From Amanita rubescens (lineage: Eukaryota; Basidiomycota; Agaricomycetes; Agaricales; Amanitaceae), in assembly GCA_015039365.1 (NCBI GenBank), contig WION01000790.1, positions 1-16,184 on the forward strand: DNA of 16,184 bases. Reading direction: 5' to 3'. The translations under genes and the position numbers were made by a program. The notes beneath the pieces are model-generated. The model searched no databases. It was not told the DNA's origin and worked only from the letters and a program-made list of their open reading frames with translations. Shown here in pieces: positions 1,440-15,827 of the stretch. Every line of letters starts with the position of its first letter. Within the stretch, counting starts at the first letter, position 1.

Positions 1440-1787
1440 CTATTGAGTAATGTGACAAAAATCTTGATGACCAGAGTGCATAAAGTCAGGAGTAATGTCA
1501 GTCTTCAGCTTCTGAGCATAGCCTTTTTGCTTGTATTGATCCAAGGCCTCTGTGACTGATGGCAGAAATGGTTTATTGATCCAAAAGGATAGCTTGGCAA
1601 TGATAATAATTGCTCCAAGGTTTAAGCATAAATTCAGTACATGAAAAGGAGTGATTCACAAACTAAGACCTGGCAATCAGTAGGCTTGTTTGCAATGTCA
1701 TCGTTTTGTACTACCCAAAAAGAAAAAAGAAAAACCCTTGACTGCAAAGTTCCTTTTCTTGTTTCCAAACATTGAGAAAAAATCATG
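1440..1787 (-). CDS. Candidate 3'-terminal coding exons of the GTPase gene, beyond the intron array
   Basis: Two open stretches lie here. 1440-1655 is open in one frame, without an ATG near its start. It encodes a hydrophobic segment (LGAIIIIAKLSFW), then INKPFLPSVTEALDQYKQ and a stop at 1440-1442. The pattern of hydrophobic helix, FW, then ALxxYK resembles the C-terminal part I remember for mushroom GTPases of this type; that is recollection, not a search. 1634-1787 is open in another frame. It is reached if the last array intron (donor GTAAGA at 1860) ends at the CTAG whose last base is 1788, and this is the frame in which the concatenated microexons arrive. One possible join between the two is a donor GTGAAT at 1657 with a weak GGAG acceptor ending at 1613 (45 nt); it keeps frame but is not well supported. 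Exon limits are unresolved. Confidence 0.4.
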
Positions 1788-2018
1788 CTAGTTATGTATG
1801 AGATAGAGAATACAGAATAATCACATGAGGTGTGGTGGGTGAGCTGAAATGAAATCTTACAATCTATGTGATAATAATGTAAAAGGACAACATGGAAAAG
1901 ATAAGGCAATATGCTCACTTTCTGATATGTATAATAGTAGGATGTAATGATGCATCAAACATTCATGAATTGAGGTATGCTGAGAATGCAGTCAAAAAAT
2001 TGCAAAGGAACTCACAAG
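1788..2018 (-). repeat. Distal diverged end of the intron-microexon array
   Basis: Read on the minus strand, the geometry of the main array continues in sequence that no longer resembles the repeat consensus. Exon CTT is at 2016-2018, then a 94-nt intron (2015-1922, GTGAGT...ATCAG), exon AAA at 1919-1921, a 55-nt intron (1918-1864, GTGAGC...CATAG) and exon ATT at 1861-1863. A GTAAGA donor at 1860 has a candidate acceptor ending at 1788 (73 nt). All three exons are exactly 3 nt. Old units therefore flank the homogeneous array on both sides. This argues against a random minisatellite and suggests that splicing crosses the whole tract. Confidence 0.6.
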
Positions 2019-5000
2019 CTGTTGGTCATAGGAAAAAATGTGATGAGACTGCCTTTCACAAAATGTGCAATGTCACTCACTCTGTTGGTCATAGGAAAAA
2101 TGTGATGAGACTGCCTTTCACAAAATGTGCAATGTCACTCACAAACCTGTTGGTCATAGGAAAAGATGTGATGAGACTGCCTTTCACAAAATGTGCAATG
2201 TCACTCACTCGCTGTTGGTCATAGGAAAAGATGTGATGAGACTGCCTTTCACAAAATGTGCAATGTCACTCACTCGCTGTTGGTCATAGGAAAAGATGTG
2301 ATGAGACTGCCTTTCACAAAATGTGCAATGTCACTCACTGCTGTTGGTCATAGGAAAAGATGTGATGAGACTGCCTTTCACAAAATGTGCAATGTCACTC
2401 ACACTTCTGTTGGTCATAGGAAAAGATGTGATGAGACTGCCTTTCACAAAATGTGCAATGTCACTCACTCCTGTTGGTCATAGGAAAAGATGTGATGAGA
2501 CTGCCTTTCACAAAATGTGCAATGTCACTCACTCCTGTTGGTCATAGGAAAAGATGTGATGAGACTGCCTTTCACAAAATGTGCAATGTCACTCACTGCT
2601 GTTGGTCATAGGAAAATGTGATGAGACTGCCTTTCACAAAATGTGCAATGTCACTCACAAGCTGTTGGTCATAGGAAAATGTGATGAGACTGCCTTTCAC
2701 AAAATGTGCAATGTCACTCACTCGCTGTTGGTCATAGGAAAAGATGTGATGAGACTGCCTTTCACAAAATGTGCAATGTCACTCACTCTGTTGGTCATAG
2801 GAAAAGATGTGATGAGACTGCCTTTCACAAAATGTGCAATGTCACTCACTGCTGTTGGTCATAGGAAAAGATGTGATGAGACTGCCTTTCACAAAATGTG
2901 CAATGTCACTCACTCGCTGTTGGTCATAGGAAAAGATGTGATGAGACTGCCTTTCACAAAATGTGCAATGTCACTCACTCCTGTTGGTCATAGGAAAAGA
3001 TGTGATGAGACTGCCTTTCACAAAATGTGCAATGTCACTCACTGCTGTTGGTCATAGGAAAAGATGTGATGAGACTGCCTTTCACAAAATGTGCAATGTC
3101 ACTCACATCTGTTGGTCATAGGAAAGATGTGATGAGACTGCCTTTCACAAAATGTGCAATGTCACTCACTTGCTGTTGGTCATAGGAAAAGATGTGATGA
3201 GACTGCCTTTCACAAAATGTGCAATGTCACTCACCTGTTGGTCATAGGAAAAGATGTGATGAGACTGCCTTTCACAAAATGTGCAATGTCACTCACTCGC
3301 TGTTGGTCATAGGAAAAGATGTGATGAGACTGCCTTTCACAAAATGTGCAATGTCACTCACTCTGTTGGTCATAGGAAAAGATGTGATGAGACTCCCTTT
3401 CACAAAATGTGCAATGTCACTCACAAGCTGTTGGTCATAGGAAAAGATGTGATGAGACTCCCTTTCACAAAATGTGCAATGTCACTCACTTGCTGTTGGT
3501 CATAGGAAAAGATGTGATGAGACTCCCTTTCACAAAATGTGCAATGTCACTCACATGCTGTTGGTCATAGGAAAAGATCTGATGAGACTCCCCTTTCACA
3601 AAATGTGCAATGTCACTCACTTGCTGTTGGTCATAGGAAAAGATCTGATGAGACTCCCCTTTCACAAAATGTGCAATGTCACTCACTTCCTGTTGGTCAT
3701 AGGAAAAGATCTGATGAGACTCCCTTTCACAAAATGTGCAATGTCACTCACAAGCTGTTGGTCATAGGAAAAGATCTGATGAGACCTCCCTTTCACAAAA
3801 TGTGCAATGTCACTCACTCGCTGTTGGTCATAGGAAAAGATCTGATGAGACTCCCTTTCACAAAATGTGCAATGTCACTCACAGCTGTTGGTCATAGGAA
3901 AAGATCTGATGAGACTCCCTTTCACAAAATGTGCAATGTCACTCACTGCTGTTGGTCATAGGAAAAGATGTGATGAGACTCCCTTTCACAAAATGTGCAA
4001 TGTCACTCACTAGCTGTTGGTCATAGGAAAAGATGTGATGAGACTCCCTTTCACAAAATGTGCAATGTCACTCACTTCCTGTTGGTCATAGGAAAAGATG
4101 TGATGAGACTCCCTTTCACAAAATGTGCAATGTCACTCACTTGCCTGTTGGTCATAGGAAAAGATGTGATGATGACCCCTTTCACAAAATGTGCAATGTC
4201 ACTCACTTGCTGTTGGTCATAGGAAAAGATGTGATGTAGACTCCCTTTCACAAAATGTGCAATGTCACTCACTTGCTGTTGGTCATAGGAAAAGATATGA
4301 TGATGACCCCTTTCACAAAATGTGCAATGTCACTCACTTCCTGTTGGTCATAGGAAAAGATGTGATGTGACCCCCTTTCACAAAATGTGCAATGTCACTC
4401 ACTTGCTGTTGGTCATAGGAAAAGATGTGATGAGAGCCTCTCCCTTTCACAAAATGTGCAATGTCACTCACTTGCTGTTGGTCATAGGAAAAGATGTGAT
4501 GAGAACCTCTCCCTTTCACAAAATGTGCAATGTCACTCACTTGCTGTTGGTCATAGGAAAAGATGTGATGAGACTGCCTTTCACAAAATGTGCAATGTCA
4601 CTCACTCCCTGTTGGTCATAGGAAAAGATGTGATGAGAGCCTCTCCCTTTCACAAAATGTGCAATGTCACTCACTCGCTGTTAGTCATAGGAAAAGATCT
4701 GATGAGACTCCCTTTCACAAAATGTGCAATGTCACTCACAAGCTGTTGGTCATAGGAAAAGATCTGATGAGACTGCCTTTCACAAAATGTACAATGTCAC
4801 TCACTCCCTGTTGGTCATAGGAAAAGATGTGATGAGAGCCTCTCCCTTTCACAAATGTGCAATGTCACTCACTCGCTGTTGGTCATAGGAAAAGATCTGA
4901 TGAGACTCCCTTTCACAAAATGTGCAATGTCACTCACAAGCTGTTGGTCATAGGAAAAGATCTGATGAGACTCCCTTTCACAAAATGTGCAATGTCACTC

Positions 5001-5121
5001 ACTCGCTATTAGATGTGATGAGACTCCCTTTCACAAAATGTGCAATATCACTCACTTGCTGTTGGTCATAGGAAAAGATGTGATGAGACTCCCTTTCACA
5101 AAATGTTGCAATGTTACTCAC
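2019..5121 (-). repeat. 48 near-identical tandem intron copies of about 62 nt, separated by 0-4 nt
   Basis: The period is about 64.7 bp. On the plus strand each unit runs from ctgttggtcatagg to caatgtcactcac. On the minus strand it is a complete short intron: donor GTGAGTGAC, a body with TCTTTTCCTATGAC near the 3' end (pyrimidines plus a possible branch site) and acceptor CCAACAG, 62 nt in the commonest form. The 15 junctions nearest the GTPase core (4207-5124) are all exactly 3 nt. The remaining 34 (2016 to 4144) are 0-4 nt, half of them 3 nt. The junction at 3234/3235 has zero length, so acceptor and donor abut. Subtypes cluster: GATGTG...ACTGCC at 2.0-3.35 kb, ACTCCC from 3.36 kb, GATCTG at 3.57-3.94 kb, GAGAGCCTCTCCC at 4.43-4.86 kb. 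A three-unit higher-order duplication occupies 4606-4804 and 4805-5002. One copy (5006-5055) is shortened to 50 nt. Confidence 0.9.
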
Positions 5122-6156
5122 ATACTGTTAGACATAGGCAAAAATTTGGTAAGGTCATCTTTTGAACCACTAAATTAGCATGACATGCTGCTAACCTTCT
5201 ATGTTTATAGGAAAAGATGTGATTTCACTACTTTTCACACAACTTGCAATATCACCCACAGTCTGTAGAACAAAATAATGTCTCCAAATTGTCCTGTAGC
5301 AAAATGGCCAGCATCACTCACTTCCTTTTAGAATGGAATTAGTATCATGAGGAGTTGAGGAAAAAGAAAAAAATGCCACTGACTCTCTTTTGCCATATTA
5401 TTTCATATGATGAATTCACATGTCTTAGAATGATCACATACATCCTATTTATTTTGCAATAGCTTGCAAAGAGACTTTGAAAAGGAGAAATATTTACTGT
5501 CTGTTGTTTTGGGACATCATATAATGTTTATAAGCAGACAGAAAGGAAATGTTACTTACTTCCTGTTATTAATCCAATGAAATCTGTTGAGACTCTCTTT
5601 CAGATAATACTATGTTACCAACTTTCTGTTGCTCATTGAGTAATATGTCTGATAAGCTGTACAAACATCAATGTTGCTTACTTTCTTTAAGCAGGTCAGA
5701 TGTGGTGTGAAGGAATGTTGTAGTACTCACTCCCTGTCCATGAGAGACTGGATTGACAAGTCTGCTTACAATGATAGATCAACTCACTTGCTATTGGCCA
5801 TATGATACACCATGGGATCATTTACCATAAGAACCAAAATTGACTCATGTCGCTCACTTCCTGTAGATTATGGGACAAGACTGCTGATCACAAAAGGAAG
5901 CATTACTCACAAACTGTTGTCATGAGACAATATATCAGAACTATGCTATGTAGTTCAATGTCACTTACCCACTGATATCAATAACGTGAGATCCTGCCAC
6001 CAAGAATATTGACAGTGACTAACCTGCATTTCACTCAATTGTTTATTGGCCATCTGAAGCATGACTAATGTTGTTTTCATGTGAAGGCATTGGAGTGTTA
6101 CTTACCTCCTGATGAACATTTGCAAGTATTTATCATTCCATATGAAGTTCACCTAC
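5122..6156 (-). repeat. Proximal diverged array: 17 introns separated by single-codon exons
   Basis: On the minus strand from 6156 downward there are 17 introns of 48, 52, 52, 55, 50, 67, 54, 46, 56, 60, 59, 53, 55, 59, 59, 61 and 71 nt. Each starts GT (GTAAGT, GTGAGT, GTGAGC, GTAAGC, GTTAGT, GTTGGT, GTAAAT, GTATGT, GTCAGT, GTGGGT or GTTAGC) and ends AG. The exons after them are GAG (6106-6108), a 30-nt exon (6024-6053), TGG (5969-5971), TTT (5911-5913), GAA (5858-5860), CAA (5788-5790), GGA (5731-5733), AAA (5682-5684), AAA (5623-5625), GAA (5560-5562), ACA (5498-5500), GAT (5442-5444), AGA (5384-5386), GAA (5322-5324), ACT (5260-5262), AAG (5196-5198) and TAT (5122-5124). All are phase 0 and none is a stop. 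Remnants of the repeat consensus show common origin, but the bodies have diverged widely while splice sites and exon length persist. Confidence 0.8.
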
Positions 6157-7538
6157 CTCCCTGTCCACCTATTGCCATTTAAATTTTCCTATGCTGATGT
6201 GCAGTTTGACAAAAATGCATACCCAAAAATGTGGAAATTTTGAGAAAACTATAATAATGACATTGTCCCATGCCCAATTTTTATATTTCAGAACTTGTCT
6301 GAAAAATGTCAATGTTAGTAAGTGATATTTTGAATGTGACTCTCACCGAAGTGCAGATTTAACACAAAGGTCAAGATTATTCATCTGTGTTGAAACAAAC
6401 AGCTGATGTATGCTGTCATCATCTATTGCATCAGCAGTTCGCTGAGTTAATTCAGGACAATCCTTCTCTGGCAAATCCATGTCTATGAAACAACATTACT
6501 CCCATTTTTCAGGAAGAAATGGCTCATCATTCTCACCTTCCAACAGCACATATGCCTTGGGAGGATATTTGGCACCCAAAACTTTTGGAAGATAAACCTT
6601 CTGAAAAGTGACTTCAGCAATTTCACTGGCTCTCTCCCACTTATCTTCATCCATTGTATCAGTCAAGTTAACAAATTCACTGGCTATTTGACCATCAAAT
6701 TTAGTGAATATAACCACCAAGGGAACTGTAAAGGAAATATTTACTAGTCAGTATTAGTATATTTTCTGGAAAATTGGCCAATGGAAAGGTAACCCCTCCA
6801 AAACCAACAAGTTGCAAGATGAGTTCATTAGGACTTACCTCTGCCTGTCCCTTTATTGAAGAATTCAAGTTCTGAAGATAGAATGGGACGAGGGCTGTCC
6901 ATGGGTATACAGTACCTAGTAGAGGATGTAAAGTCAACCAGTAATGTAAAGGAATGATGCAAAATACCAAATTGCATGCAGCTGGCTTTTCAGCTCAGTT
7001 TCTGCAGACTTCTTTTCAATGAACTTCCAAGCAATATCCAATTCCTCAGTTGAACCAGATTCAAAACCCTGAGAGTCATGGAAGATAAAGTTACTCCCAG
7101 GGTATGTAATTTGATGCTCAATATCATGCAGGCCTCTCTGTTATCATTGCATGTGAATGGGTGCATCCATACATCATTATGTACCTGGCTCACTTCAAGT
7201 GATGGCATCAAATGAATGATAGACTGTTCAAGCCGATTACCTGCAAGAAACTCAGCAGCCAAACTTGGAAGCACAAAACTCAGAATGACTTACCATCCTT
7301 GCCATATATGATGGGCTTTGTCCCCTTTGCTATACCACAAACCTTCTCAAGGATGGTTGTCTTGCCTGCATTAGCCCTCCCAATGACAAGGATGCGAAAG
7401 TGTGGGCATAGATAGCGTTCTTTGAGCATTTGAAGATTTGTCTCATTTTGATCTGCTATTGTCAAGGATTAGATATGTTCACATAAAATAATAAATTAGC
7501 CTACTCAAAGATCCAGGTGCACCAGTTGTAGCTGCCAT
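6157..7538 (-). CDS. P-loop GTPase core (AIG1/50S-binding-GTPase-like, basidiomycete type), start of a much longer gene
   Basis: Exons, as plus-strand intervals in minus-strand order: 7505-7538, 7294-7455, 7194-7240, 6968-7137, 6839-6915, 6537-6725, 6347-6482, 6223-6298 and 6157-6168. Introns are 49, 53, 56, 52, 113, 54, 48 and 54 nt, all GT-AG, and frame is kept throughout. The first eight exons give 297 aa. G1 is GRANAGKT at residues 37-44, the G3-like DSQG at 102-105 and the G4 TKFD at 171-174, so it should bind and hydrolyse GTP. LHAIWYCIP, before G4, is typical of the fungal family as I remember it. A hydrophobic stretch (VIIIVFSKFPHFW, 285-297) precedes the 12-nt exon VDRE, after which the microexon array begins. 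The start ATG at 7538 is the nearest upstream one in frame; an in-frame ATG at 7742 would add 68 residues of low-complexity look. If the 54-nt intron at 6169-6222 is retained, translation stops at the TAG at 6169-6171 and gives a 314-aa form. The exact cellular role is unknown. Confidence 0.85.
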
Positions 7539-7542
7539 AGCT

Positions 7543-8050
7543 TGAGCTAGGATCAAGATCAGATTGTTTGATTGAGGGGGTGGTGAAATGGAAATATGCT
7601 TGCCACTGGAGATATGGAAAAAGCAGTGATAGCTGGGTGTGTGAATCAAGAGGGGATTGTGTACTGGAGACTTGGATGAGGCAATGGATGATGTGTCTGG
7701 ATTCTGGATCAAGAGATCAGCAAGCAGCCATGGTGGTTCCATGATGTGGCTTGACCTACTAGTTCGTGAGGCGTAGATGGTGTGTGCGGGCAAAGTAAGT
7801 TGCAATACAGTCAGATGACCGTGTGAAAGGCAAGAGCTGGTTAGAGATGATGCGTTTGCTGTTGGTTAAGACTTGAGAGCGCACGGAGCGATGCGAGTGC
7901 ACTCTGGGTACAAGCGAAATCAAATGGCCGTCTTGTCAAAGGATTGAGAGCGCGCAGGACTACTATAAGTTCACGTGCGAGGCAGCACTGACCCCAGGAA
8001 CCAGGCTGCTCTCGGGCCCAGTCATACATATTTAGGTAACTTCTCCATTT
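7543..8050. promoter_or_regulatory. Upstream region of the GTPase gene and composition boundary
   Basis: This is the putative 5' flank of the minus-strand GTPase gene. The open frame continues in phase to an ATG at 7742, so part may be 5' UTR or an N-terminal extension. Near 7850 base composition changes visibly from AT-rich, repeat-bearing sequence to about 50% GC. No clear TATA box or other element could be assigned. Confidence 0.35.
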
Positions 8051-11500: not shown

Positions 11501-12096
11501 TACGGTGGCCCAAAGCGTGGCTCGTGATAGAAAAGGACCAGGCGCGCAAAGCGTTGAACTTACCACCGTGCGGAACGGGATCTAGATCTAAACGGTTGAG
11601 ACGGGTGGCTGTGCTGCCACGTCAAATTCAAGAGCTGGCTTGCCTGCTGTGCTCACATTTTGACTCGGAGTCTAAGTCAGTTCGGAACATCGAACACCTG
11701 CTCACCTACACCTACAACTCCGCATTCGTCTGCCACGAGCGTCCACGGAGGCCGTGAACCAGTGAGCTCTTTTCTTTATGCACAGCAGGACTCGGAACTC
11801 ATCGTCGGCCTAGGTTGAAGTGTACACGAATCAAAAAACAAGTACCATCGGGAGGCACGAGATATGGTTTTGAAACACACCCTACAAGATAAGCCACCCA
11901 CCTAGACCGTACGCGCCATTTTCTGAACTGGTTCTGATTGCTCAGTTTCGTGCTCGCGTTTGCGTAGTACTATGCCCGGCTCAAGAGCCATCCTTCAAAT
12001 AAAATTGGAGGATCTCGAACAAGGACTCAGGAACTGGCAAAGACGGGACCGTTACAACAAATGATTCACGGAAAATGAGTGGCGCCTACGGTACCA
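11500..12096. other. No supported gene; perhaps the eroded 5' end of the polymerase remnant
   Basis: Upstream of the ExoII-like segment the minus strand should carry the N-terminal and ExoI parts of polymerase gamma, but I could not recognise them. A plus-strand frame at 11485-11757 shows no motif. From 11760 to 12096 I see no gene, repeat or RNA. Confidence 0.4.
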
Positions 12097-12456
12097 CTAC
12101 TTTACAAACGACTGCGATAACATACTGATCAATATATTGAAATTTACAAAGACTATGTGCATAACTTGCTCATGTAACGCAAATGTCACATAGGTATGAA
12201 GTCGTTTTTCGTTTGCCACAAATCTCGTCCTTGTCAGGCCACCGATATCGAATGGAGTAGAAGGTGAATCGACGCGGGAGGTTGCGGATTGGATGGCTTG
12301 GTGAACGTCATTGGGGAAGGAAATCCAAGGCGTGAGTGTCTGAAGATCGGTCCTAGGATGTGTCCGTAATGATTTGGCAGGACTACGAAAACCAGAGGGA
12401 TCGAGTTCTATTCCCCCACGACCCGCAAAAGGGAGATCTGGGAGGCTGGTTTGCAT
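12097..12456 (-). CDS. Hypothetical protein or fragment, 119 aa
   Basis: An uninterrupted frame begins at an ATG at 12456 and ends at 12097. The first 85 or so residues look protein-like (GRGGIELDPSGFRSPAKSLR, then LTPWISFPNDVHQAIQSAT and PFDIGGLTRTRFVANEK); the last 30 are hydrophobic and look like read-through into non-coding DNA. It could be the first exon of a small gene or another fragment. It lies about 90 bp downstream of the monooxygenase stop on the same strand. No family recognised. Confidence 0.3.
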   Translation of the reverse strand: MQTSLPDLPFAGRGGIELDPSGFRSPAKSLRTHPRTDLQTLTPWISFPNDVHQAIQSATSRVDSPSTPFDIGGLTRTRFVANEKRLHTYVTFALHEQVMHIVFVNFNILISMLSQSFVK

Positions 12457-12544
12457 GAGGCGTCGTAAATTTCGATCTCCGCCCGCGCCGGAACAAACAA
12501 GACAAACGCATCGTACCCCACAGCGAACATGGTAAAAGAATGTA

Positions 12545-14715
12545 CTAGGATGATGAACTTATTGCAACCCTCTGCGCCCGCCGCTCTTCACCAAGCCTTG
12601 CAATCTCGCTCTGCTCGATCACCCGGAAAGGCCAAGTGAACCAATTTCCACCGCTCCGCATGGAAGGAAGATGCATGTCCATAAGCAACGTATCTACATG
12701 TCGACACCAGCTGAATGAAAACAAATGATCAACCAAAAAGTGGTGTTTATGCTGAAGAAACTCACTCCCACAAGCAGAGAGCACCGCAGTAGCTCTCGTT
12801 AACGAACATAGGCACATTCGGGAACCGCTTCCTCAGCCATGCAGCATAGTATTCCCCAGTCGCCAGTGCTTCTTCCACAGAAGATGGAAGCCGCATTGTA
12901 TCTTTGAGGAAGTACGAAGATATCCAGTGAGCTGAAACTTCGTACGTGTAGCCACTATTGGCGCTAAACTGCAAGCAGATGTAAGAATAGATATGATGGA
13001 TTGACGGCTTGACCACGTACGACAGCACCGTTAATAGCAAAATCATGTCTTTCAATGTTCTTCGCGGGAACAATGCCACGGTAGATCGAGGACGCCCACT
13101 GCTCGCTATCTGGATGAGCTACCGGAGCGTCTTTCAGGGTAATAAAGGAATCCCAAGCATCCTTCAACACCTGTGTTCGCGGAGGATGTCTATTGATCCC
13201 CAGCTTTTCCGCTGTCTCGGCTACGATGCATACTAACTTTCAGCCTCACGTTCCCAAAAGTATGACGAACAAAGACGCACGCACCATCAAATAGATGGCT
13301 CCAAGACGATGTGTAACCTGTGGCTAAAATGACAATATCCGCTGGCAAGCTTTGGCCCGTGCTCAGAATCACAGAGCGGCCGTCCGCGCCGAAGCCTTCC
13401 ACATGGGCTGAAGGAAAAAGCTGGACGTCTCCCCGATTGACTGCGGCGAAGAAGCTGTCGGGGCGGTAAGTCCCCTCGTCAGTGGTGCGAACGTTCCAGA
13501 AAAGTGAGTGGGTGCTTCGGAGTGGAGAGTTATTGGGGAGTTCGAGTACGTCAAACTAATAGTGGTGTCAGGTTGTATGGTGGAGGTAACAGACTTTACG
13601 TACTGATGATGATGATAATTTATTCCAAATGAAGTGTGTAATTTTACTCCCCACCCAGGTCGTGTGTAAGAATCGTCTAGAGGATTTTGGTGAGAGGAGA
13701 ACGAGAGAAGGTCGAAGACTGACTCTAGGCGTGTCCGTAATTCAATATGAGGGGACAGAATGCTCAAGAATCTTATTTGAATAAATTCACTAAATCGCAA
13801 GAGAAGAGTAACGACCTGCTACTTGCCGACTTCTTCGAATATAGTTAGGGAGGGGCTTTTTATTGGCCATTGGGGCATCTGATTTGCTAAAAACGAGGGC
13901 AACGTTTCGACCCTCATTTGCCAGATGACAAGATGTACTACGTGCAGAATATCAGATTGTTGGCGTGCGTGCAAGAGAACGCAATATCCTACTCTTGCGC
14001 GGATTTACCGCCTCCTACGACGACGACGTATTTGGGTTCACTTTCAGAGTTGGTCCTCGCAAGAATGTTATCCAAGTTTGGTGCAAAGTCCCTTGCATGA
14101 ACGACGAGGCCCTGGAACCCGGCGGCTTCTGCAGCCGAAGGCGACAAGGCTTTAGGAACATTGGGAGAATGGCAACCCTGTAGATACGCGTACTTCAGAA
14201 GTCGTTCGAACGTTTTCAAACTGAGTACTGACGCCGGTGCACAGGACAATCCTGGAGTATTCAAGAACTGTTATGGTTCCCTCGTGCTTGTCCTTGATGT
14301 CCACGTTCCAGGAACCGCTAGGAGACCGCCGTATGTTGAGGACCTCGACCTCAAATTTGATTTTGTCTTTCAAAAACGTTTCCGCAAATGTTTCCATATA
14401 ATTGCATATATCTTTTCCGGACAGTCGACCGCCAGTCTTCGCGGATTCTTCAGGTGACATGGACAAAGAAGAGAAGCAAAACTCTCCCTGGGGGCTGTGG
14501 CCGATCATTTAAGAGATGAGGGATAAGGTCGCCTGTGGAACGCACCTGTTAATTTTCATGCTGGGATAGACACGATGTCTGGCCCAGACGCCTCCGGGGG
14601 ACCTGTCCTCAGTAAGGAGCTGGACGTCAAACCCGTCTTGTAACAGGACGTGAGCCGTGATAAGACCGGAGGGACCGGCACCGATGATTCCTACAGTATT
14701 AGCGAGGGTGGCCAT
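12545..14715 (-). CDS. FAD/NADPH-dependent flavin monooxygenase (FMO-like), nine exons, intact
   Basis: Exons, as plus-strand intervals in minus-strand order: 14546-14715, 14233-14494, 13993-14177, 13827-13937, 13600-13771, 13285-13555, 13021-13220, 12766-12968 and 12545-12710. Introns are 51, 55, 55, 55, 44, 64, 52 and 55 nt. The joined frame is 579 codons plus stop, a normal length. The FAD-binding GAGPSG is at residues 12-17, then GGVWARHRVYPSMKIN. FQGLVVHARDF (165-175) matches the FMO signature FxGxxxHxxx(F/Y). The NADPH-binding VVVVGGGKSAQD is at 195-206 and LATGY at 377-381; the C-terminal RSGGNWFTWPF is conserved in fungal homologues as I recall. It should oxygenate a small nucleophilic or ketone substrate in the cytosol; the substrate cannot be told. 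The fourth intron (13772-13826) has a GCAAGT donor; all others are GT-AG. Upstream in-frame ATGs at 14880 and 14796 would add hydrophobic residues, but 14715 gives the usual short leader before the FAD site. Confidence 0.9.
13772..13826 (-). other. GC-AG intron in the monooxygenase gene
   Basis: The only join that keeps the conserved reading ...YIRRSR|FLSILSPHIEL... uses donor GCAAGT at 13826 and acceptor AATAAG ending at 13772 (55 nt). No GT near the boundary gives the needed phase. GC donors are a known minor class and normally carry exactly this strong AAGT context. Confidence 0.75.
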
Positions 14716-15827
14716 TGCGGAGGTATTGGAGGTTGAAGAAGTCGAGTCGTTCAGTAACATCGAGCTATATGTTGTCATTAATGCATCGTTTCCCATGCTA
14801 AAGAACAATACGATCAGCTCGGACGTCACGGTGAGGCTTCTGAGGCTTGTTCTTAAGAGTATAAGTAATAACCGAACCAATTCTGTAGCACTCCATACGG
14901 TGAAGTAAGATACTGGCCGAGGATCGATCGATCAACGTTTCATTCTCGCCTACACGCTGGACGGAACGAGTCGAACGAATTTGCTTCTGCCATCGAAAAA
15001 CCAGACAAGCCATAGATGTTACCTACAGCTATTAACCCAGACGGCTGCGGCAGCTCCAGGAATCTGAGCAAATTTGGGCAGAGCCCCTAGTACACGAATA
15101 CTCTCAATTCGCTTCTATCATCAAGAAGCCCATTGCGAGCAGCCACCAGAAGCATGTTTCAGTTCGAGATGACACAGGGGAGGAGGGTGGCGGGTAAGGA
15201 GCGAAGGGGATGGCGGGAGCAAGCTGGGGGGCTCAGCAAAGCGTCAGCAGCTTTCTTTCCATTGCCGTCTAATTTATGGCTTCGATATCCAATTTCAGTA
15301 TTGCGCCATGAACGTCCCGCGATCAGGAAAAATTGCCGCGTATATGACGGCTGCAGATGACGTGGCTGCGACTCCAGTCATCGTCTGCGGGGGTGGTGCG
15401 GCATCAGCTTGATCCAGAAGGCAAATGAATCATACCCGGGTCTTATGGACAGCTGACATTATTTCCAAAATGGGAAAAAAGGGTTGGAGGCGCAGAGCGT
15501 GAGATTTGATTAGTCAGAACTGTGCATGTGGTTTTCCAAAAGAAGTAAACGCACGAATCTAGTCATTTGCCTCCCTTGTCTCGCGCCTTGAACCGTTTCG
15601 CTGGTCTGCTATGGACCCGCAGTCACCACCCGCTCATCCCTCGTCCTTTAAATCATTTTCTTTTCCATCATCAAGACCTTTTGGCTTCACTTTTTCACTA
15701 CCAGGCGCATTACAGAGAACTCTCTCATTCACATTCGCCACGCGCCTACGCTCGACTATTAAGAAACGCCACGTTTGGCAGTGGCTACGGTTCATCCGAA
15801 TCACAACCTCAACCTGGGAGTTCCTCA
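14716..15827. promoter_or_regulatory. Divergent intergenic region
   Basis: About 1.1 kb separates two divergent starts, the monooxygenase on the minus strand and an unknown gene on the plus strand. It probably holds both promoters. A pyrimidine-rich tract (about 15640-15740) lies before the plus-strand start, as is common in fungal promoters. Frames at 15567 and 15611 read through it, but their composition looks non-coding and the first begins at TTG. No binding site could be assigned. Confidence 0.4.

Follow-up and report, generated by a model that had tools for sequence, protein, structure and literature searches.

Tandem introns separated by predicted one-codon exons in a GTPase gene family of Amanita rubescens

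The window analysed here, a stretch of 16,184 nucleotides (nt) from contig WION01000790.1 of the Amanita rubescens assembly, carries on its minus strand a GTPase gene with a tandem array of short introns, most of which are separated by only three nucleotides. Comparison of sequences makes it likely that this segment of the gene is spliced one codon at a time in A. rubescens. The one-codon-exon array pattern is family-wide and recurs in a large GTPase gene family. The original prediction, made from the letters of the window alone, had proposed that a GTPase gene contains several dozen one-codon exons in succession. This proposal is supported: the gene belongs to a large family, and proteins of relatives carry the corresponding residues.

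Architecture of the window gene and its array

The features of the gene are listed below by their positions in the window.

6157-7538, minus strand: GTPase part; nine exons (7538-7505, 7455-7294, 7240-7185, 7137-6968, 6915-6839, 6725-6537, 6482-6347, 6298-6223 and 6168-6157) encoding 304 residues in one frame, with GT-AG boundaries; relatives in Amanita species
6024-6053, minus strand: 30-nt exon MANKQLSEMQ, preceded by the one-codon exon GAG at 6108; the related protein P0033 has DEMANKQLSEAQ at the same place
5122-5971, minus strand: 15 one-codon exons forming a conserved block, W F E Q G K K E T D R E T K Y, between introns that have diverged
4207-5058, minus strand: 14 more in-frame one-codon exons, Q R L R G L R G Q Q Q E Q Q
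1861-4144, minus strand: remaining array, 36 exons of 0-4 nt, the last two being AAA (1921) and ATT (1863)
1992-5143, minus strand: near-identical units of a 62-nt master intron and a spacer (Tandem Repeats Finder: period 65, 48.7 copies, 93% matches)
1670-1741, minus strand: probable first post-array exon, which holds a stop in the spliced frame of this copy
1464-1628, minus strand: segment of the C-terminal helical domain (AIIIIAKLSFWINKPF..), 47% identical to the related protein P0046, 394-448 (tblastn)

The GTPase model contains the P-loop GRANAGKT and the motif TKFD. A P-loop GxxxxGKT and TKxD are motifs of immunity-related GTPases (IRG) and dynamin-like GTPases. The ninth exon (6168-6157, VDRE) ends on a codon boundary, in frame with the array, as had been claimed for the exon preceding it, and joins the nine-exon frame of 304 residues.

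Between 6108 and 1861 on the minus strand, 67 array exons with GT-AG boundaries were identified, in line with the earlier description of about 67 tandem introns with good splice sites. The exon script returned 66 of them and overlooked a CGA exon at 4677, whose acceptor reads CTAACAG; the single 131-nt gap in the scripted list corresponds to the two introns flanking this exon. The array introns are 46-94 nt long, mostly 62 nt, with GT-AG ends; such ends and lengths are usual for fungal spliceosomal introns. By size, the array comprises 49 exons of 3 nt, ten of 2 nt, three of 4 nt, three of 1 nt, one of 0 nt and one of 30 nt. Recounting of the first 31 exons (6108-4207) agreed with the original description: one measures 30 nt and the other 30 measure 3 nt, all are in phase 0 and free of stops, and together they encode E MANKQLSEMQ W F E Q G K K E T D R E T K Y Q R L R G L R G Q Q Q E Q Q.

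These residues had been predicted to form a tail of the protein. The residues themselves were borne out, the motif WFExGKK being common to the window and the related proteins P0002 and P0033, and their position was not, as they lie before the C-terminal helical domain. This domain was found beyond the array both by tblastn in the window and in the alignment of the related protein P0057 with its A. rubescens locus L070, and the array as a C-terminal tail was dropped. The array lies between the GTPase part and the C-terminal helical domain, as a probable linker.

Arrays across the genome and probable selection on their codons

The spacing was evaluated with a splice-site parse in which exon length was left free (0-60 nt) and which misses a few weak old junctions. 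In the window, 44 of 64 parsed exons were exactly 3 nt long, while the reverse strand and each of 20 dinucleotide shuffles gave none. When the window and two other array regions, C8 and L073, were taken together, no 3-nt exons appeared on the three reverse strands and a single one in 60 shuffles, which rules out a chance origin of the 3-nt exons in these regions. The proportion of exons of exactly 3 nt was 70/74 in C8, 51/58 in C13, 64/72 in C1, 74/84 in C3, 41/48 in L070, 55/64 in L071, 47/53 in L072, 48/53 in L073 and 45/50 in L074; most of the remaining exons in these regions are long pieces merged across missed weak junctions. The longest unbroken one-codon runs, as parsed, reached 24-55 exons outside the window (55 in C8) and 18 in the window, where missed weak junctions shorten the run. 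In each of L061, L062, L071-L074, C1 and C3, there were 45-74 exons of 3 nt, with longest runs of 26-55.

In the A. rubescens assembly searched (75.7 Mb, 786 contigs), the junction CAG-NNN-GTGAGTGACATT was found at 5,839 places with at most two mismatches, compared with 187 for the reversed control pattern. Among the matches listed, 85 array clusters were typed and thinned by hand, near-identical contigs among them possibly being two copies of one locus; the GTPase list held at least 144 places. A same-strand GTPase match lay within 13 kb upstream in 63 of the 85 listed clusters and downstream in none, and an opposite-strand GTPase was present on the far side in five. Four of the 22 other clusters were probed, and three of these are directly preceded by a GTPase of this family, the fourth being C3. 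The arrays examined do not resemble near-identical introns scattered over unrelated genes in the manner of introners. Locus L069 (C170:54900-61500) parses exon by exon as the C1 array and is its duplicate, and the contig pairs C79/C239/C667 and C89/C459 score equally in one of the genome searches; C170/C1 and these pairs probably represent the two haplotypes, or else recent duplications, within the assembly. At L061, more than 1 kb (about 6350-7750) separates the end of the C8 array from its C-terminal domain exon, perhaps as a result of an insertion.

Introns and codons of the arrays differ strongly in their variability. Nine of the ten parsed regions, the window and the duplicate L069 among them, share one modal intron consensus of 62 nt, and C8 has a 53-nt variant; the gene bodies of 39 listed relatives are only 83-91% identical to the window despite this shared consensus. 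Per-site diversity within the arrays of L072, L073 and L074 was 0.008-0.011 in introns and 0.44-0.71 at codon sites, and the introns of C13, C1 and C3 are more diverged (0.19-0.27). A comparison of L072 with L073 showed differences at 9 of 3,374 intron sites and at 9 of 144 codon sites. Because the intron consensus is shared, exchange of units between arrays would visibly alter only the codon. In C8, intron identity was 0.909 for units with the same codon versus 0.843. Array-to-array exchange of units, combined with selection that removes stops and may favour novel codons, would account for this most simply.

Stop codons are nearly absent from the arrays. The 521 one-codon exons of the ten regions, which were picked non-randomly from the first listings and to which the window contributes the 26 one-codon exons that the parser found before its first frame departure, contain one stop versus 27.3 expected when bases are shuffled within arrays and positions, and none of 5,000 permutations was as low. 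The lone stop is a TAA in C8, where the anchored chain gives AAA AAA (a conserved K-K), and is probably a parsing error. Across exact junctions genome-wide, TAA accounted for 0 of 465 NAA codons, TGA for 1 of 440 NGA codons and T in first position for 5 of 78 NYA codons; TNT occurred 225 times and TGG 15 times.

The conserved block was compared separately. Its chain of 15 one-codon exons was traced in all eight genes compared, in a search that required 3-nt exons. Mean codon identity in these genes was 0.93 and that of the intron interior 0.87 (0.82 with gaps), while 49% of intron pairs differ in length. No indel in this old block changed an exon length, which proves little, given that exons make up about 5% of the sequence and the pattern required 3 nt.

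Codon usage in the ten regions was biased at the third base (60% A, 31% T, 6% G and 3% C). A C just before the donor was rare, as were NAG codons, which fits a splice-site constraint on codon choice.

Proteins of relatives and competing explanations

A homology search with the window GTPase gave 1,431 relatives, of which 120 were listed. Among the latter, 21 are represented by JGI contigs only, about 0.9-2.1 kb long, with long frames uninterrupted by introns of the A. rubescens type. Those that carry residues of one-codon exons lie on contigs of 1.4-1.9 kb, too short to hold the introns, and we infer from the uninterrupted frames that most of the 21 proteins are RNA-derived. Six of the 21 (P0002, P0019, P0033, P0046, P0051 and P0057) contain the one-codon peptide block; P0067 and P0104 also fit a loose block pattern and were not counted as clear carriers, and a narrower pattern misses P0033. 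The block was found in none of the 98 NCBI-sourced models among the listed relatives. The sequence FPHxW was reached by 29 of these 98, which stop after a median of 9 further residues (98 at most), and many family members in public annotation end close to the array start. In the A. rubescens NCBI model P0087, FPHYWVMM is joined straight to the C-terminal domain with the array region skipped, an example of how annotation can lose the array.

The closest correspondence was obtained for P0057, a protein of 478 residues on a 1486-nt contig, whose A. rubescens orthologue is L070. In a protein-to-genome alignment, P0057 follows L070 codon exon by codon exon into the C-terminal domain, through the exons F E S A D N A A A K E R Q Y Y D D ... 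A G Y G Y Y G G E K I S E K E R D K R K D. Identity in order was found for 31 of 38 one-codon exons, whereas 20,000 shuffles of P0057 gave a mean of 4.1 and a maximum of 14; the count of 38 excludes the middle G-I-H-S stretch and the last few codons, where the aligner is out of register.

The window-type block reads DEMANKQLSEAQWFEHGKKDTDKQIVYDG in P0033 and WFEKGKKESDREIEYDGG in P0002. Beyond the conserved Y, P0002 continues for 43 residues to R-I and then VRFHF. The window reads likewise from ATT at 1863 into its last intron (a 12-residue match, E 7.3), and P0002 looks as if a window-type last intron had been retained. Spliced alignments of P0033 with the window and of P0002 with L062 are good over the GTPase part and the first conserved one-codon exons and then lose register, as the hypervariable codons are not the same from one locus to the next. 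P0046 and P0051 match closely except in the array-encoded stretch, which differs in sequence and length, and at a few sites before it; their alignment with L075 is too diverged to use. Translation of the unspliced repeat was also considered and set aside: the open frames on both strands of the window reflect the scarcity of stops in the unit, and no such product is present in any of the 28 relatives whose sequences were read.

According to the AlphaFold2 model of P0057 (mean predicted local distance difference test score 79, predicted template modelling score 0.80), the protein consists of a GTPase domain and a helical C-terminal part. Residues 316-360, which roughly correspond to the array-encoded part, are modelled with low confidence, as would be expected of a flexible linker. 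Foldseek searches with this model returned immunity-related GTPases first, with dynamin-like proteins among those that follow, with a best E-value of 1.4e-5 and a query template modelling score (TM-score) of 0.36. A Pfam scan of the 304-residue GTPase part gave no family at E 0.001. The array appears to be the diversified linker of an IRG/dynamin-like GTPase. A role in recognition or defence is a guess by analogy, suggested because this resemblance coincides with a large expanded family and a hypervariable segment.

In the proposed mechanism, the spliceosome would join single codons into the protein stretch between the GTPase part and the C-terminal helical domain. The repeat unit consists of a whole intron, with a modal length of 62 nt (53 nt in one array), and 3 coding nt; each intron would be excised on its own by intron definition, the usual route for introns of 50-70 nt. 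Since every unit is an intron plus 3 nt, units could be gained, lost, swapped or skipped without disturbing the frame. Units would be exchanged among arrays, so that introns become homogenised, with selection favouring new codons and rejecting stops. The array would then serve as a diversification cassette for a flexible linker, with an evolutionary logic like that of concertedly evolving fungal allorecognition WD repeats. The full form of this proposal is a codon-cassette system in which dozens of loci exchange units of an intron and one codon, and the recognition segment of an immune-like GTPase is rewritten residue by residue under a protected frame; we hold it tentatively and rate it a little short of an even chance.

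Several other explanations were weighed against splicing codon by codon. A neutral minisatellite, lying in one large intron or a dead 3' end and having internal splice sites that are unused by-products of duplication, would account for the young half of the window array, where repeats are 93% identical and the spacing needs no selection, as well as for the 0-4 nt spacing below 4146 and the broken frame downstream. It is very improbable in view of the apparently RNA-derived relatives that hold the one-codon residues in order, the near absence of stops among highly varied codons and the 15-exon block that can be traced in eight genes despite unequal lengths in about half of the intron pairs. Insertion of near-identical, introner-like introns between the codons of a pre-existing ordinary exon fits the combination of an identical intron consensus across loci with diverse codons, and also the same-codon units of C1 and C3, whose introns are not more alike. 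Random insertion, however, predicts many 6- and 9-nt exons and split codons, whereas the short exons are almost all exactly 3 nt and hardly any measure 6 or 9 nt; codon and intron are linked in C8, and the arrays examined belong to one gene family, leaving this origin disfavoured and improbable.

Two further alternatives concern how the arrays are used and how they vary. The array might be an alternative-splicing device, as in schistosome micro-exon genes, from which units are skipped in many in-frame combinations: skipping of any 3-nt unit would be neutral to the frame, and the splice sites are interchangeable. We consider this unlikely, since P0057 includes the one-codon exons of its orthologue with little sign of skipping. 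The hypervariability of codons might also come from a mutation process targeted to the junctions and not from selection. A difference between L072 and L073 that is 23 times higher at codon sites than at intron sites, and third bases that are 90% A or T, speak for such a process; the near absence of stops indicates that selection at least filters its products, and exchange with other arrays would change codons alone, the introns being equal. This explanation is rather unlikely, with somewhat more weight than the splicing device.

A number of observations weigh against splicing codon by codon or against its extension to unit exchange and selection. Support for splicing at the window locus is indirect, through proteins of relatives; P0057 and P0002 come from other genes or species, and their one-codon exons are deduced from A. 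rubescens homologues. The JGI proteins are taken to be RNA products because their frames run without interruption on short contigs. Three frame breaks occur in the GTPase part of L070 as assembled here, although P0101, identical at 221 of 223 positions over the aligned part, is free of them. A search for further spliced relatives with the P0002 tail region recovered only the query itself, and a search with the C-terminal region of the deduced L062 protein gave 0 of 247 candidates at E 10. In C3, the chain starts at 126454 and is long and stop-free, with a C-terminal domain match at about 132.5 kb; no GTPase match was found in the 2.3 kb read ahead of it, and the listed junctions run past the C-terminal domain to 135581 (about 135.6 kb). 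There is a single TGA among the genome-wide junctions (C537:2929-2946). In the four closest relatives, the introns of the conserved block are more alike than the codons, same-codon units of C1 and C3 lack the intron similarity seen in C8, and codon diversity could be mutational instead of selected. Finally, the 3-nt spacing is departed from after exon 31 of the window copy and partly in L071.

This last point concerns the window copy itself, and here the original reading stood for the first 31 exons, which are clean, and gave little weight to the part below 4146. The first departure is a 4-nt exon, GCAA, at 4144; exon lengths then vary between 0 and 4 nt, and the strict 3-nt frame no longer holds. 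With all window exons spliced together, the array reads without a stop to its end, where the frame is off by two; the next exon then brings a stop before the C-terminal domain, giving a predicted protein of about 384 residues that lacks this domain. Below 4146 the copy looks relaxed or decaying, so that the strongest support for splicing one codon at a time comes from relatives. We give an even chance to the possibility that the family is real and the window copy a decaying member, with the first 31 exons inherited from a working ancestor and the rest drifting. Besides the irregular lengths, the frame shift and the stop, decay would explain why the C-terminal end departs from that of L062 and why L071, a 91% relative, is partly relaxed too. 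Against it, the spliced reading is open across all 36 remaining exons (about 30 codons, for which luck may suffice), splice sites persist and the GTPase frame is intact.

Elsewhere in the window, at 12000-15000 on the minus strand, intron-split open frames were observed (GAGPSGLITAHVLLQDGFDVQLL..), which we take to resemble a flavin adenine dinucleotide-dependent monooxygenase.

Comparison with known systems

No one-codon-exon array was found in the open-access literature, as covered by titles and abstract openings and with subscription papers mostly outside the scope; within it, no work on microexons in Amanita turned up, and papers on tandem microexons described no such array. If the splicing proposed here takes place, some 50-85 introns would be removed in a row in the parsed chains, each exon supplying one residue, which greatly exceeds the isolated exons of 1-3 nt found in the open-access literature. 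Intron definition would be tested at its limit because each donor starts 3 nt after the preceding acceptor. Minisatellite instability, usually harmful in coding DNA, would here alter the protein by exactly one residue per unit with the frame kept.

On the side of the protein, the best Foldseek matches liken the family to IRG and dynamin-like GTPases such as Irga6/IIGP1, which combine a P-loop GTPase with a helical C-terminal part. With the TM-score given above and 12% identity, and with no Pfam hit in the GTPase part, this is a resemblance of fold only.

Ultra-small exons are represented by the 1-nt exon of Fusarium CYP621A, which indicates that spliceosomes can use exons of 1-3 nt (PMC12940212), and by the 3-bp exon of Drosophila homothorax (PMC7392893). 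In contrast to the dozens in a row in the arrays, these are cases of one ultra-small exon per gene. The origin of a new intron from duplicated splice signals has been described as a single event in a potato gene (PMC4974935), whereas duplication in the arrays is serial and each round adds a codon. Fungal introner-like elements are multiplied, invasive introns within one genome (PMC4457414); unlike these, the array copies are tandem, come with one codon each and, where examined, belong to one gene family.

Concerted evolution is known from the WD repeats of the Podospora anserina het-d/het-e (hnwd) genes, in which exchange takes place within and between members and diversity is found at few positions (PMC1805685). 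The array units are similarly homogenised within and between loci, with the same consensus in nine of ten regions, one of them a duplicate. Diversity in the young arrays is concentrated in the codons, as that of hnwd is at few positions, and selection, unit exchange or mutation could each explain it. In the array, it is the intron that is homogenised and the one-codon exon that varies; the hnwd repeat, by contrast, is protein-coding. The hnwd genes encode NLR proteins with WD repeats, whereas the P0057 model shows a GTPase and helices and no WD repeat; allorecognition serves here only as an analogy.

The nearest parallel in exon structure is provided by the micro-exon genes (MEGs) of Schistosoma, whose coding region consists largely of very small symmetrical exons (PMC4350168). 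Like MEGs, the arrays have many consecutive exons with lengths that are a multiple of three (45-74 of 3 nt per array). Unlike in MEGs, the array exons are single codons in unbroken runs of up to 55 (C8), their introns are homogenised across arrays, and the host is a fungal GTPase gene.

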